Source: Hypericum androsaemum (Eukaryota; Streptophyta; Magnoliopsida; Malpighiales; Hypericaceae). From it: a DNA stretch of 64,000 nt. Below, piece by piece: positions 9,887 to 64,000 of this stretch. A model generated the notes under the pieces. It did not search any database, was not told the origin of the DNA, and worked only from the letters and a program-made list of their open reading frames with translations. The stretch covers positions 2,649,001 to 2,713,000 of the forward strand of contig OZ023192.1 in assembly GCA_963995505.1 (NCBI GenBank). The letters are read 5' to 3'. Position 1 is the first letter of the stretch; every line of letters starts with the position of its first letter. Both the position numbers and the translations under genes were made by a program.

Positions 9887-11841
9887 ATGAATATTCCTGA
9901 GCAAGGTGAGGACGAGATCACTGAGCTACTTGAGGCTCAGAGCCATGTATGGAGCCAGCTTTATAGCTTCATAAATTCCATGTCCCTAAAATGCGCAATC
10001 CAGCTTGGGATCCCAGACATAATCCACAAACATGGCAAGCCCATGTCTCCTTCCCAACTCGTCAATGCCCTAGCCATCCACCCCTCCAAAGCCCCTTGTG
10101 TCCATCGCCTCATGCGCTTCCTAGTTCACTCCGGCTTCTTTAAACACCGAAAAATGGAAGAAGGTGACGACTCTGAAGGAGGTTACGTCCTCACAGGTAG
10201 GATGTGATATCGATCAACGGGGTGATTAAATTCGGTAGAAAATTTCTGAAAACTTTAGTACATATTAGTATTCGGTAGAATTTGGACAAATATTATTATT
10301 TTATCAAAAATCTGAATAAACCGGAATCTCCTTCTTCCATGTTTACATTTTGTTCGGTTGAAGGTTTGAAACCCTTAGTCGGATAAAATCTGGGTATTAT
10401 TTGGATTGTTTGATGTCTAATGTTAATTATTTTATGTATTAATGATGAATTATAATTTTTTCATAAAATTCTGGATTTACCGAAATCTAATTCAATATTC
10501 GGTAGTCTTTACCAAATTAAGTCCTTTTTTAATTTTCGTATTTGGTAAATTCAGTGTGGTGTTTGGTAAAAATTTCAGTAATTAACGAATTAACACCTCT
10601 ACTCGCAGGTGCCTCCAAACTTGTATTGAAGGATAACCCCTTAAGTGCAGCCCCTCAGGTGCTGGCCATACTGGACCGGACCATGCTTGAGCCATGGCAC
10701 CACCTTCACCTCTGGTTCCGAAACGATGACGCTAGCCCCTTCGCGACGGCTCATGGTTCGCCTTTGTGGGAATTTTGTGGGGAAGAAACTAGTGTTAAGA
10801 ACTTGTTTAATGAAGTGATGGATAGCGATTCCCGACTCGTGTCGCGGATACTCACCGATGAGAGGCACAAAGGCATGTTCGAAGGGATGGGATCTTTGGT
10901 TGATGTGGGTGGTGGCACCGGAACTATTTCCATGGCGTTGGCTGATGCATTCCCGGATCTGACATGTACGGTCTTAGATCTACCGCATGTTGTAGCTGAT
11001 TTGGAGGATACTAAGAACTTGAAATTTGTCGGAGGTGACATGTTTGTATGTGTTCCTCCCGCAGATGCTGTTATGCTGAAGGTACATACTCTTTATTTTG
11101 GTAAAGATAGGAATAAAGGGAGGGGTGAAGATTTGGCTGAGCTAAAATCCTTTTAAAAAAATTAAAAATGTATTTCAAAAAATGTTTTGTTTGTTTTCTG
11201 CATTTGGTTTTACATGAAAAACTTGTGTCGTTTCCCTACTTTTTACGATAATTGATTTAACTGTTTTAACATAATTTTTTCGTTTCGTGTGCTTAAATTA
11301 AGTATGGTTTATGGCAAAAAAAAATTCGTAAACTACTTCTCTAAAAACTAACAAGTAGTAGAAAGTTTTCTAACAACTTTCTGAAATTGTAATCAAACAA
11401 TGGAAAAATATTGTCTTTATAGAAAAATCAATGAAAAGTTATTATCAATAAACTTTTCACCAAAAACAAACATAGCTTAAGTAGTACTTCCTTACCCAAA
11501 TTGGTTTCTTTATTGATCTTAATCAGTGGGTTCTACATGATTGGAACGACGAAGACTGCGTGAAGATACTCGATCGGTGCAAAGAATCGATCGAGAACAA
11601 AGAGGGAGGAAAGGTGATGGTGATAGACATGGTGTTGAACAACAAAAGTGGAGACAATAATAGCAAAAGTGACAAGCAAATGGAAGTACAACTCTTTTAT
11701 GATATGCAATTGATGACTGTACTCAACGGTCAACAAAGAACTGAGGAAGAATGGGCGAAACTTTTTGATGATGCTGGATTCAGCCGGTACAAAATAAGTA
11801 ACATTTTGGGTGTCAGATCTGTTATTGAGCTCTTCCATTAA
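9887..11841 (+). CDS. Plant SAM-dependent O-methyltransferase (OMT1), with an extra intron
   Basis: Exons 9887-10196, 10609-11081 and 11527-11841 join to 366 codons (365 aa). The N-terminal dimerisation domain begins at [10 protein letters not shown] and includes [14 protein letters not shown]. The methyltransferase domain has the SAM loop [10 protein letters not shown], the motif LDLPHVV and the catalytic-base motif LHDWND, then [13 protein letters not shown]. These are hallmarks of class II plant OMTs of the resveratrol/isoflavone/alkaloid type, which methylate hydroxyls on phenolics or alkaloids in the cytosol. The substrate cannot be predicted. The intron after exon 2 has its counterpart in OMT2. 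The first intron (10197-10608) is absent from OMT2 and OMT3 and coincides with a hAT-like MITE. Splicing at CACAG|GTAGGA and CTCGCAG|GTGCC restores LTG-ASK exactly. Confidence 0.92.
10190..10609. mobile_element. hAT-like MITE forming OMT1 intron 1
   Basis: The insert 10198-10601 (404 bp) lies between CTCACAGG (10190-10197) and CTCGCAGG (10602-10609), an 8-bp direct duplication with one mismatch. Its ends, TAGGATGTGATATCG and the inverted right end TAGAGGTGTTAATTCG, resemble the TAGGGGTG termini of the other hAT-like MITEs in this window. OMT2 and OMT3 have no insert at this codon. The left duplication plus the element's first bases make the donor CAG|GTAGGA. The right duplication supplies the acceptor CGCAG|G. 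Confidence 0.82.
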
Positions 11842-13221: not shown

Positions 13222-13293
13222 CTTAATTATTCATCGCTTAGTATTTCATTCATCACACATCTCAAAAAAATTTGAGTCTAAAAATCATTAGGG

Positions 13294-13510
13294 ATGAATA
13301 TTAGTGAGAACGAGATCACAGAGCTGCTTGAGGCTCAAAGCCATGTATTTAACCAAGTGTTTAGCTTCATAAGTTCCATGTCCCTAAAATGCGCACTTCA
13401 GCTTGGGATCCCAGACATAATCCACAAACATGGCAAGCCCATGTTTGGTTCCGAAACCATGAACCTACACCGTTCGACACGGCTCATGGTCTCCCGATTT
13501 TCGAACGTAA
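13294..13510 (+). pseudogene. OMT 5' fragment with internal deletion
   Basis: The frame begins [19 protein letters not shown] and follows OMT1 through [10 protein letters not shown]. It then jumps to the region of OMT2 corresponding to WFRNDD..TPFDTAHGLP in another frame, so about 290 bp of coding sequence is missing. Homology stops near 13510, where an inverted OMT segment begins. Confidence 0.85.
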
Positions 13511-13736
13511 CATGTCAACATGATTTCATAACAAAAATGGGTTAGGATGCAAGAATCACACTACTTAGAAACACCTACAAATAAACATACCAATAAACAC
13601 CTACAAATAAACATGGCAAATAACACCAAGTGTTTACCTCTGTTTCCCTCCATGTCAACATGATTTCATAACAAAAATGGGTTAGGATGCAAGAATCACA
13701 CTACTTAGAAACACCTACAAATAAACATACCAATAA
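13511..13736. repeat. Direct repeat, 86 bp x 2, offset 140 bp
   Basis: The block beginning CATGTCAACATGATTTCATA and ending CATACCAATAA occurs at 13511-13596 and 13651-13736, essentially identical. It was duplicated inside the inverted OMT intron segment. Confidence 0.85.
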
Positions 13737-14116
13737 GTAATTTTTGGTGACAATATAACAAGTAAAAAATTATATATTTAGAAAACAACAAAATTCTACC
13801 TATAAATATAGCAAGTCATATCTATGTCATCTTCTATCGTAAAATTTTCGAAAAGGTTGAGTATATATACCTTTAACATAACAGCATCCGCAGGGGGAAC
13901 AAACTCAAACATGTTACCTCCAACAAATTTCAAGTTCTTAGTATCCTCCAAATCGGCAACTACATGAGGGAGATGAAGCACAGTGCACATTAGATCCGGG
14001 AAGGCATCAGCCAACGCCATGGACATAGCTCCGGTGCCACCACCCACATCAACCAAAGACTTCATCCCCTTGAACAGGCCTTTGGACTTGCCAATGACAT
14101 GATTAAAAAATATTTC
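13511..14116 (-). pseudogene. Inverted OMT fragment (SAM-binding exon plus intron)
   Basis: On the minus strand, about 14090-13874 encodes [20 protein letters not shown] through ADAVMLK, the part of OMT ending at the conserved splice donor. It is followed by OMT intron sequence that also occurs at about 20640-20710. The intron part contains a direct repeat (13511-13596 and 13651-13736). The N-terminal domain and last exon are absent. The orientation is opposite to OMT1 and OMT2. Confidence 0.82.
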
Positions 14117-14360
14117 CACTATGATCAAGATACTTGATTACAAAGATATCAACGGGTATTCATAATAAAAACGATGCAATCCTACTAAAGGCCAATAGAA
14201 TATCCATACTGATTAACACACAAACAAAAAATTTATCTCTAGAATAGTTTAGTTTATAGTCTATCAGACTCCATAATCTAATAAAATTATCTGATTGTAT
14301 ATAACAAATTACAATTCAATAGTATTCTTGTCTCAGGTCAAACTCGAGACTGTAGAGAAC
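14117..14360 (-). repeat. Inverted copy of the OMT1 3' flank
   Basis: Reverse complement of about 11852-12112 with some substitutions, for example CTATCAGACTCCATAATCTA against TAGATTATGGAGTCTGATAG. With the original it forms an inverted repeat of about 250 bp separated by about 2 kb. Confidence 0.85.
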
Positions 14361-14533
14361 CAAAAGTGGAACTAATGAAATATTTTGTATTTCTTTAATA
14401 AGAAAAAATTTAATACTTCTCGATCCTTGAGTTATAATAATCTAAAAGAGTAAATTCAGCCGAGGACGATGGTTAGACTGTTTGTATTTCTTTTGACAAA
14501 GTCGACGGTCGCAACCTCACAATAGACCGAGAA
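14361..14533. other. Spacer
   Basis: Short AT-rich spacer between the inverted OMT copy and a MITE. No feature seen. Confidence 0.5.
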
Positions 14534-17895: not shown

Positions 17896-18390
17896 ACCTG
17901 ATCTAGGGGTGACCATCAATTCAATTCGGATTCAATTCAATTTGGTTTATTGATTCGATTTGGATTTAAATCAACTCATATGAATCTGAATTTATTATTG
18001 GATATTTTGAATCTACATCCATATATCATAAATTCGACAATTCGTCTAATTATTTCGTCCAATTATGTATTAAAATAATAGAAAAAGAAGTATGACCAAA
18101 TTTGTAAAGAGGGAGAAAACGGGGATGAATTGAAATTTCTCTTCCTCTCCACAAACCTGGATTCCGCGCTAGAAGCAAATTAGAATAAGCAGATTTTGTG
18201 TATATAAAAGGCAACAATGACTTGCTGCTCGGATCTCGCATTGCTTATTCTTAATACATGGAGCCTCACGATAACTAGCACCTAAGGCCCTCGCCCATAG
18301 AAAACAAATTTGAATTCTGTCAAATTTAACTATAATTTGATAGTCTATAATTCGTATCGTATTCAATTTGTGGTCACTCCTAACCTAATC
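17896..18390. mobile_element. hAT-like MITE, TAGGGGTGACC termini, 8-bp TSD
   Basis: The element 17904-18382 has ends TAGGGGTGACC and GTGGTCACTCCTA. Flanks are ACCTGATC (17896-17903) and ACCTAATC (18383-18390), one mismatch. The interior is rich in ATTCAATTCG-type blocks. Relatives lie at 29.7, 34.5 and 48.6 kb. Confidence 0.83.
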
Positions 18391-19541: not shown

Positions 19542-21077
19542 ATGAATACTCATGAGCAAGGTGGGAACGACGAGTTCACAGAGTTACTTGAGGCTCAAAC
19601 CCATGTATGGAACCAACTGCTTAGCTTCATAAACTCCATGTCCCTCAAATGCGCAGTTCGGCTTGGGATCCCAGACATTATCCACAAACAAGGCGAGCCC
19701 ATGTCTCCTTCCCAACTCGCCACTGCCCTAGCCATCCACCCTTCCAAAGCCCCTCGCGTCCACCGCCTCATGCGCTTCCTAGTTCACTCCGGCTTCTTTA
19801 AACACGAAAACCTCGTCGACACGAAGGAAGAAGACGGCCATGGCTCCGAAGAAGGGTACGTCCTAACGGGGGCTTCTAGACTTCTATTGAAAGATAACCC
19901 TTTAAGTGCAGCACCTAATGTGCTCTCCATGCTCGACCCGACTATGTTTGAGTTGTGGCATCACCTTCACCGCTGGTTCCGGAACGACGATCTTACGCCA
20001 TTCGACACGGCTCATGGCCTCCCGATGTTCGAGTTTTTCGGTCGGGAGCCGAGGGTTGGCAACTTGTTTAACGAAGCAATGGCTAGTGATTCCCGATTGG
20101 TGTCGCACGTACTCGTTAACAAGTGCAGAGGCTTGTTCGAGGGGATGAAGTCTTTGGTTGATGTGGGTGGTGGCACCGGAACTATGGCCATGGCGTTGGC
20201 CGGTGCGTTCCCGGATCTAACGTGTACTGTGCTCGATCTTCCTCATGTAGTTGCCGGTTTGGAGGATACTAAGAACTTGAAATTTGTTGGAGGTGACATG
20301 TTTGAGTGTGTTCCTCCTGCGGATGCTGTTATGTTGAAGGTAAAATATACTCAATCTAGTTGAAAATTTTACGATGTTTTTTTAAGGTTTATTTTTATAC
20401 TATGATTACAATTCTCAGGGTTTGAATTTCCATAAATTTGTATACTTTTTATGTCGTTAGGCTAAATGTTCTCTGGCGAAAATTTTACGATGTTGATGGT
20501 ACGGACACTTGTTATTTTCACGATTTCACCATTTGTCTATATAAATTACTTTCTCTATTTTAGATTGTAACTAATAAATTTTGGCGGGTTCATAGTTTGT
20601 CACTTGGTAGTTTTTCACTATCAAAAATTTTATTTCATATTGGTATGCTTATTTATAGGTGTTTCTAAGTAGTGTAACTCTTGAATCCTAATCCATTTCG
20701 TGATGAAAACATTGCTCATTTTCTTATAATAGAAATTGATTTACTGAATATATGGTTTCTCTGTTGATAATCTCAACCAGTGGATTCTACATGATTGGGA
20801 CGACGAAGAGTGCGTAAAGTTACTCGAGCACTGCAAAGAATCGGTAAAGGACAACGAGAGAGGAAAGGTGATCGTGATAGACATGGTGTTGGACAACAAC
20901 AACAGTGACAAGCAAGCTGAAACACAACTCGCCTTTGACTTGCATGTGATGAGTCTACTCCCCGGCCGAGAGAGAACCGAGAAAGAATGGGCTAAACTTG
21001 TTGATGATGCCAACTACAGCCAATATAAAATAAGTAACATCTTGGGTCTCAAATCTGTTATTGAGTTATTTCCTTAG
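19542..21077 (+). CDS. Plant SAM-dependent O-methyltransferase (OMT2), intact
   Basis: Two exons, 19542-20339 and 20781-21077, with GT-AG borders, give 365 codons (364 aa), normal for class II plant OMTs. The N-terminal dimerisation helix (ELLEAQTHVWNQLLSFINSM), the SAM-binding loop [35 protein letters not shown], the catalytic-base motif LHDWDDEE and RTEKEWAKL are all present. It lacks the extra intron of OMT1: codons for VLTGASRLLL are continuous. The single intron at the LK|W position is the ancestral one. Predicted to methylate a small hydroxylated metabolite in the cytosol; substrate unknown. It probably arose by tandem duplication with OMT1 and OMT3. Confidence 0.94.
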
Positions 21078-48618: not shown

Positions 48619-49377
48619 TTCCATCATAGGAGTGACCATGAATTGAATCTGATTTAAATTTAATTTGGTTCGATTTGTTGAAAATTAGATTCAAATTTTA
48701 ACCATATGAATTTAAATTCGTCATTGGACGAATCGAATCCAAATCTATATATATCAAATTAGTCAATTTGTCGAATTAATCGACGAATTATACATTTAAA
48801 TATTAAAAAAGAAATAGGAAAAGAGGAGACAAAATAGTGATATTTGTTATATATTATTAATAGAAACTCTTCTATAGTATAATATTTTATGTAGATGTTT
48901 TACATCTCATCAAACTAATACCATTATCTTACAACTTTATCATTATAGTCCTCCAGAAAAATTAAATAAATTTTTAAATTGTTTTAATAGTGCTATACAT
49001 AGGTGTTTATTATCCTACATGACATTTATTATTTTATGACTATGTTAATATATATTGTGCAATAAATAATGGTATCAAAGTTTTTGAATTGTGAGAATGT
49101 GTTATCGATACTGCTAAAAAATGGTTTATATAGTTTAGTGACATTCCCCGACTTATCGACATTGCCAAAATCTTTAGAAATTTAAAAAAGTTCAAAAATA
49201 TATAAAATAATAGAAAATAATTCGAATTTGGATGAATTTCATTTGAATTCGATGTTTTATAATTCGAATTCGAATACGTCCTGGGACGAATTGTATACGA
49301 ATCATAATTTTAATAATTCAAATTTGACGAATTATAATTCAAATCCGATTCGATTCGTGGTCACCCCTATCCCAACA
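48619..49377. mobile_element. hAT-like MITE (TAGGAGTGACC termini)
   Basis: The element 48627-49369 has ends TAGGAGTGACCATGAATTGAA and GTGGTCACCCCTA. Flanks TTCCATCA and TCCCAACA match six of eight. The site in the duplicated flank at about 34275 (CCATACTCCCAACATATA) is uninterrupted. Confidence 0.78.
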
Positions 49378-62639: not shown

Positions 62640-63179
62640 ATGCACGTACTTAATTAATGCGAAATCATAATATTTAATGAACACATCATTAAATCGAAAT
62701 AGTCATATTAAATGATTTACCTCTTGAAGCGCATTCCGTTCTTCGAGAGGTATGTCACAGGATCGAGGGAGGCTTATCACTGGTCGTCCTCGCTCACGTA
62801 TTCAAAACGGGGATTGAATTTCACCGCCTAAAATTCTTGAGAATTTCCTGGAGAAAAAACTAAGTTTTTTTTCTCTGTGAGTATGTTTGTGAGTTTCTTC
62901 TCTATCTCCCAATAAAAATCACTATTACATATTTAATAAGAATTATCAGGGAGGAGAGAGAGGGTGGGAGAGTTATCACGTATAATCATTCAATATGATT
63001 TAATAATTTACATCTATAAAAGTAATATATACTTTCATCACACATCTCAAAGGAACTAAAAAGCCTGACCCTAAAAATTTATTAAGGATGAATATTTATG
63101 AGCAAGGTGGGAACGACGAGACAAAAGAGCTACTTCAGGCTCAAACCCATGTATGGAATCAACTGCTTAGCTTCATAAA
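62633..63179 (+). repeat. Long direct repeat, copy 2 (OMT promoter and first codons)
   Basis: Second copy of 59674-60344, here continuous with the rest of an OMT gene and thus probably closer to the source. Confidence 0.88.
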
Positions 63180-63881
63180 ATCCATGTCCCTAAAATGCGC
63201 AGTTCAGCTTGGGATCTCAGACATAATCCACAAACATGGCAAGCCCATGTCTCCTTCCCAACTCGCCACTGCCCTAGCCATCCACCCCTCCAAAGCCCCT
63301 CGAGTCCACCGCCTCATGCGCTTCCTAGTTCCTCCGGCTTCTTTAAACACGAAAACCTAGTCGACACGAAGGAAGAAGACGGCCATGGCACCAAAAAAGG
63401 GTACGTTCTAACGGGGGCTTCTAGACTTTTATTGATGGATAACCCTTTAAGTGCAGCGCCTAATGCGTTCTTAGTGCTCGTCCCAAATATGTTTGAGTTA
63501 TGGCAGCACCTTCACCTTTGGTTCCGGAACGATGATCTTACGCCATTCCACACGGCTCATGGCATCTCGATGTTCGAGTTTTTTAGTCAGGAGCCGAGTG
63601 TTGGCAACTTGTTTAATGAAGCAAAGGCTAGTGATTCCCGACTGGTGGCGCACGTACTCATTAAAAAATTCAAAGGCATGTTTGAAGGGATGAAGTCTTT
63701 GATCGATGTGGGTGGTGGCACCGGAACTACGGCCATGGCGTTGGCCGGTGCGTTCCCGAATCTGACATGTATTGTGCTTGATCTCCCTCATATAGTTGCC
63801 GGTTTGGAGGATACTAAGAACTTGAGATTTGTTGGAGGTGACATGTTTGAGTGGCCTCCTGCGGATGCTGTTATGTTGAAG
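63088..63881 (+). pseudogene. O-methyltransferase OMT3, damaged, cut by window edge
   Basis: First exon of an OMT close to OMT2 (MNIYEQGGNDETKELLQAQT start; [20 protein letters not shown]). Two bases are missing near 63331 (CTAGTTCCTCC against CTAGTTCACTCC in OMT2), which shifts the frame. In the next frame the protein continues [27 protein letters not shown] [19 protein letters not shown] and ADAVMLK. One codon is lost in the CVPPAD block, and the splice donor after MLK reads GA instead of GT (63882). The second exon would lie beyond 64000. It lacks the OMT1-type extra intron. A pseudogene unless the two-base gap is a sequence error. Confidence 0.88.
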
Positions 63882-64000
63882 GAATATATACTCGACTTGG
63901 TCAAAAAATTTACGATGTTGATGGTACCGACATAGATATCACTTGTTATATTCATAGATGGTGTTTAATTTCTATATTCTAGATTTAAATTTATAAAATT

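Follow-up and report, generated by a model that had tools for sequence, protein, structure and literature searches.

An extra intron in an O-methyltransferase gene of Hypericum androsaemum with a very probable origin in a hAT-type MITE

The plant O-methyltransferase gene OMT1 of Hypericum androsaemum carries an intron that, in our view, very probably arose when a hAT-type MITE inserted into an exon of the OMT1 ancestor and subsequently decayed. The gene lies in a 64,000-nucleotide stretch of the host genome (C13:2649001-2713000), hereafter the window. The anatomy of the gene, the membership of the insert in an element family, its 3' boundary, its absence from near paralogues and the joined residues in a transcript-type record can all be read directly, and from there we infer that the intron was born in one step and is efficiently spliced. 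Few plant introns have a proven origin. Here a single species shows the family to which the insert belongs, paralogues in which the site is still empty, the two splice sites and a message-type record with the exons joined, which makes it possible to test directly the model that both splice sites come from a duplicated target.

The predicted spliced product of OMT1 shows the Pfam domains Methyltransf_2 and Dimerisation, and the gene comprises three exons (Table 1). The second intron is the usual intron of OMT genes, consistent with the two exons given for many members in surveys of the family (PMC9369235, PMC8706182), whereas the first is extra. Between OMT1 and OMT2 the dN/dS ratio is 0.26-0.31 and is similar 5' and 3' of the intron 1 site, an evenness that fits a gene that stayed functional. 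The corresponding dS of about 0.5 sets only an upper age limit for the gain of the intron.

Table 1. Coordinates of OMT1, the insert and related features (window positions unless a chromosome label is given; slashes mark splice junctions)
Feature	Position	Strand	Remarks
OMT1, whole gene	9887-11841	+	plant O-methyltransferase of 365 residues, three exons
OMT1 exon 1	9887-10196	+	ends ...GTC CTC ACA G; residues 61-103 identical in P0001
OMT1 intron 1	10197-10608	+	412 bp, phase 1; donor CAG/GTAGGA, acceptor CTCGCAG/GT; LT/GAS joined in P0001
OMT1 exon 2	10609-11081	+	gene model
OMT1 intron 2	11082-11526	+	at MLK/W; also in OMT2 and OMT0; unspliced plant ORFs run into it
OMT1 exon 3, stop included	11527-11841	+	gene model
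Left target-site duplication CTCACAGG	10190-10197	+	last G is intron base +1
Right target-site duplication CTCGCAGG	10602-10609	+	contains acceptor CAG/G
hAT-type MITE remnant	10198-10601	+	404 bp, 72% A+T, seven TTYGGTA motifs
5' terminal repeat remnant	10198-10206	+	TAGG, at most TAGGATGTG; then the junction of a subterminal deletion of about 63 bp
3' terminal repeat TTAACACCTCTA	10590-10601	+	coincides with the 3' end of family copies
hAT-like MITE	17904-18382		TAGGGGTGACCA-type ends, duplication 7/8
hAT-like MITE	48627-49369		TAGGGGTGACCA-type ends, duplication 6/8
OMT2	19542-21077	+	intact; coding 19542-20339 and 20781-21077; site without intron
OMT3	63088-63935	+	frameshifted near 63330; without the donor of the usual intron; site without intron
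OMT0 (L049)	C13:2645269-2646396		starts 3.7 kb left of the window
L081, family copy	G000:C8:14974326	minus	556 bp; perfect duplication ATTACAGG; Neprosin-like gene

Intron 1 appears to be spliced from the message, as judged from a chimeric protein record. This record, P0001 (360 residues, Hypericum androsaemum), is the top match in the public protein set and equals the predicted spliced OMT1 at residues 61-365 (305/305), spanning both the LT/GAS and the MLK/W junctions. Its residues 1-72 equal OMT0, a neighbouring gene that lies some 14 kb 5' of OMT1 (C13:2645269); a search among proteins returned nothing for this start, which was located as OMT0 in the genome. Both parts match the host genome exactly, which makes it almost certain that the window comes from this species, the shrub tutsan. 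OMT0 and OMT1 are nearly identical at the point where the record switches from one to the other. P0001 is, on these matches, a chimera of two neighbouring genes and an assembled record, of a type that short-read transcript assembly can produce. Leaves of H. androsaemum have been the subject of a Trinity assembly (PMC4942478). The form of the record suggests that P0001 derives from RNA-seq, and it may come from that assembly.

The borders of the intron consist of the element and its duplication. The insert starts with TAGGATGTG and finishes with TTAACACCTCTA, between flanking copies that agree at seven of eight positions, and its similarity to the exon is confined to these duplications; the 64-kb window holds no convincing second copy of it. 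Within the 3' terminal repeat, TTAAC resembles a branch point and is accompanied by a pyrimidine tract; both are candidate splicing signals. A preliminary description made from the window alone had placed the intron and the element correctly, along with an 8-bp duplication with one mismatch, a donor formed by the left duplication and the element, and an acceptor contributed by the right duplication. It had also held that splicing restores the reading frame exactly, in agreement with the intact 365-residue product and with the identity of P0001 over both junctions. Its claim of inverted ends stands for the 3' side, which is the family end, and falls for the 5' side, where the repeat is nearly lost and the proposed 12-bp pair is not significant. 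Similarly, the likeness that it saw to the MITEs at 17.9 and 48.6 kb extends to both being hAT-like but not to their ends, which differ from those of the insert's family. A further 5' boundary, with the element beginning at about 10219 after an older 20-bp flank, had been suggested by the stretch 10221-10257, the best inverted match to the 3' end within the insert's outer 60 bases (0 of 500 shuffles were as good). It was dropped because the genome copies show this stretch to be a subterminal repeat adjoining a deletion.

When the 385-Mb host genome was searched with the insert as query, 44 matched stretches were recovered, itself included (best non-self E 5.8e-32). Forty places, one of them the insert, were fetched; 26 lacked a pair of possible ends and 14 had one, of which four (L019, L029, L033 and L047) were left out, as their far end is not the family end. 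Nine of the ten copies kept are 502-558 bp long, and the other, at 704 bp, belongs to another subfamily. They run TAGGGGTGAGCAAATGG...CACACCCCTA or similar, with the terminal inverted repeats TAGGGGTGAGCAAATGG and TAGGGGTGTGCATTCGG, and in 8/10 the 8-bp duplication has at most two mismatches (none in two copies, one in four, two in two), the remaining two having four or five. The insert is 54-64% identical to these full copies, and its nearest kin, which are degraded, lie on C8, C16 and C1 (71-75% over about 150-270 bp). All ten aligned copies finish on the last base of the insert, in rows trimmed to the ends plus 8, a procedure that favours such agreement; the untrimmed local match of one copy (L040) also terminates exactly at 10601. 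At the other end, a TTCGGGAT-like motif lies 61 bases from the start of the terminal repeat in 14 loci by our own count, and in the insert GGAT directly follows TA, with GG common to both sides of the deletion junction. By this comparison the 5' side of the insert lacks about 63 bp and its 5' terminal repeat is almost wholly gone, with 4-9 bp apparently kept; in the insert itself the 3' terminal repeat alone is complete.

A full-length copy used as query gave 718 first-look candidates. Forty of them were scored, and these show 83-100% identity over no fewer than 504 of 559 bases. The family thus combines the 8-bp duplications, the short inverted repeats and the short, non-coding, multi-copy habit of hAT-type MITEs. 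Its dispersal, terminal repeats and duplications identify the insert, to judge from these sequence comparisons, as an old and decayed member of a multi-copy hAT-type MITE family. The genome search proposed in the preliminary description, for a multi-copy MITE with 8-bp duplications, yielded 43 further stretches and a family whose copies of about 500-560 bp have such duplications, several of them perfect; a single-copy insert is excluded.

The ends of the insert, taken by themselves, are less telling. The 12-bp inverted pair was equalled by 260 of 1000 shuffles and is not significant alone. A direct repeat as good as 7/8 occurred in 0.97% of 20,000 shuffles, and this evidence is weak once CAG/G is granted to the splice consensus, since CAGG is expected at both ends of any intron; among the 8-mers of the window that end in CAGG, 7/152 differ from the left copy at no more than one position. 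In combination the signs are stronger: we also scanned the window for TAG...CTA structures in which one end resembles TAGGGGTG and a duplication flanks the whole. With duplications of at least 6/8 there were four such places against a mean of 0.83 in 30 shuffles, and with at least 7/8 there were two, namely the OMT1 insert and the MITE at 17904-18382, against a mean of 0.1 and a maximum of 1 in 30 shuffles. The scan is supportive only, because its motif was picked once the ends were known. It is the genome-wide family that settles the question of MITE identity.

The site of intron 1 is uninterrupted in seven near paralogues: OMT0, OMT2, OMT3 and two genes each on C19 and C12. The preliminary description had cited OMT2 and OMT3 for an uninterrupted exon; neither has an intron at the site, but OMT3, with its frameshift and lost donor, is a pseudogene. 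The more general contention that the paralogues give the ancestral state is sustained by the seven near ones and by ten ORFs from other plants, all unbroken, some distant paralogues being split nearby at other positions and phases. In the genome search, 54 of 138 matched OMT stretches span the site unbroken by our own count (start at or before residue 84, end at or after residue 132). The ten plant ORFs come from 16 fetched public proteins, a non-random set chosen by length and source, and represent unspliced DNA, given that each continues past LLK, FMK or MLK into the usual intron. The placement of OMT1 among its paralogues is unsure: the protein tree sets OMT0 outside OMT1 plus OMT2/C19 (88/91) and OMT1 next to OMT2/C19 (89/90), whereas synonymous distances make OMT1 the most distant of these five genes (0.51-0.68 to the others versus 0.34-0.41 among OMT0, OMT2 and the C19 pair). 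Under either placement, C12 and the genes further outside are without the intron. By far the simplest history is one in which the OMT1 lineage gained the intron, since the alternative needs many losses.

We propose that a hAT-type MITE entered exon 1 of the OMT1 ancestor at CTCACAGG, an MAGG target, and duplicated 8 bp. The donor CAG/GTAGG would then join the last G of the left duplication to the element's TAGG, and the right duplication would provide the acceptor CAG/G. An A/T-rich intron body suits plant splicing; that of the element, together with the end TTAACACCTCTA, would have provided this composition and may have provided the branch-point-like and pyrimidine sequences as well. Splicing would remove the element along with one copy of the duplication and leave the protein unchanged. 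Afterwards, about 63 bp would have been lost near the 5' end of the element, which would also have decayed.

Other histories account for these observations less well. In one of them, an old intron occupied this codon and was lost from the other near paralogues, with the MITE landing in it afterwards and taking the place of its sequence; in its favour, distant paralogues do have introns close by. L125 (C6:15156900) and L126 (C6:10309380) carry a short phase-2 intron (LTxxS/R) in the third codon downstream, 10 bp from the position of the one in OMT1, and L065 (C10:7261632), L067 (C10:7451327) and L068 (C6:14288904) a phase-0 intron of about 90 bp some ten codons upstream; six further OMT stretches, located on C6 and C10, begin near the site (residues 101-107). 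However, none of the five split distant paralogues examined matches the OMT1 intron in position and phase, and such genes are just 29-53% identical, approximately. Losses would be required in OMT0, OMT2/C19, C12 and many more unbroken genes, and between the two duplications the intron consists of element-derived sequence throughout, with older intron sequence absent, which together render an ancient intron very improbable.

The insertion might instead have knocked out the gene, the insert staying unspliced and OMT1 being a pseudogene or encoding a truncated protein. The unspliced frame, which reads ...YVLT, GRM and then a stop, speaks for such a history. Nevertheless, the frame 3' of the insert is intact once spliced, dN/dS downstream is about 0.3, and the joined residues are present in P0001; we accordingly regard the loss of the gene as highly improbable. 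A tandem duplication at an AGGT site, or the end-joining of unrelated DNA with only an incidental likeness to a MITE, would explain the AGGT at either end, which the duplication model demands, yet the insert lacks exon similarity beyond the duplications and is homologous up to its last base with a dispersed family bearing terminal repeats and 8-bp duplications. This last possibility is scarcely credible, and the birth of the intron from a MITE remains the reading that we favour.

A more general proposal would treat the family ends as half splice sites, the donor being G + TAGGGG and the acceptor ...CACACCCCTA + NNNNCAGG, such that insertions at MAGG repeatedly become new or extended introns in Hypericum, with OMT1 as a decayed survivor and C8:14974326 as another trace. 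We consider so broad a habit unlikely. In a genome pattern search, CAGG followed by the family 5' end occurred 91 times when one mismatch was allowed, eight of them exact (control 0); each of the eight exact ones is flanked by a duplication that is perfect or has a single mismatch. Among 36 loci with a near-perfect family 5' end after AGG (35 distinct, L097 and L118 being the same), the duplication carries no more than one mismatch at 19 and two at 2, and the partner end was not found at 15; some of these loci deviate in length and may represent sister families that share ends. A duplication was recognised at 21 loci, and nine loci have a sense ORF of at least 60 residues across the empty site, and one of the nine has a Pfam match, to Neprosin. 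In that gene the family copy (L081) sits exactly on an apparent exon donor, ATTACAG/GT, with a GT donor rebuilt upstream, and hence looks to have lengthened an existing intron rather than created one. No further family-made introns, and no introner-like habit, were seen among these 36 AGG-flanked loci with near-perfect 5' ends.

There are precedents for such an origin. The maize hAT element Ds, reportedly described by Giroux et al. in 1994, lies in an exon, is flanked by an 8-bp duplication and is spliced as a de novo intron. That intron is reportedly a transposon allele in maize, whereas OMT1 contains a decayed MITE in a gene whose frame is intact and whose paralogues show the empty site. Transposon insertion has also been described as a route of intron gain, with 35 unambiguous events in Oryza, Drosophila, Oikopleura and Zea (PMC3443670). 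As in the route presented there, the OMT1 insertion is at an AGGT proto-splice site and both splice sites come from the duplicated target; in contrast to it, the OMT1 duplication is 8 bp long and the donor from +2 onward is the element end. The insert resembles introners, which are transposon-like elements whose splice sites may lie partly in the element and partly in its duplication (PMC9860276). Introners, however, make many similar introns, none of them in land plants in that survey (PMC9860276), while here we found one. The carrot hAT-like MITEs (PMC8227079) are comparable in being about 450 bp long, in lying in and near genes, and in altering transcripts; those in carrot introns are often retained in transcripts, whereas the OMT1 element is the intron itself. 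A literature search for plant MITEs as new introns turned up none recognisable by title or abstract, and one with the letters of the family's terminal repeats returned only unrelated papers. The mechanism is thus known in principle (PMC3443670), with precedents in maize (Ds) and in rice, and OMT1 is a clean and unusually complete new case.

Several other features lie in or beside the window. A rearranged OMT pseudogene at 13249-14361 has an exon-1 piece on the plus strand and an exon-2 piece with an OMT1-like 3' flank on the minus strand, with an 86-bp perfect repeat between the pieces; these pieces, at 13.2-14.1 kb, were set aside as evidence on the ancestral state, the site being missing from them and the locus hence uninformative. 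The last-exon frame of OMT0 stops at ...ISNILG, about nine residues short of OMT1. Between 44146 and 48025, two long minus-strand ORFs resemble a Copia-type retrotransposon by eye, and a repeat lies on either side of them, at about 43.6 and 48.1 kb.
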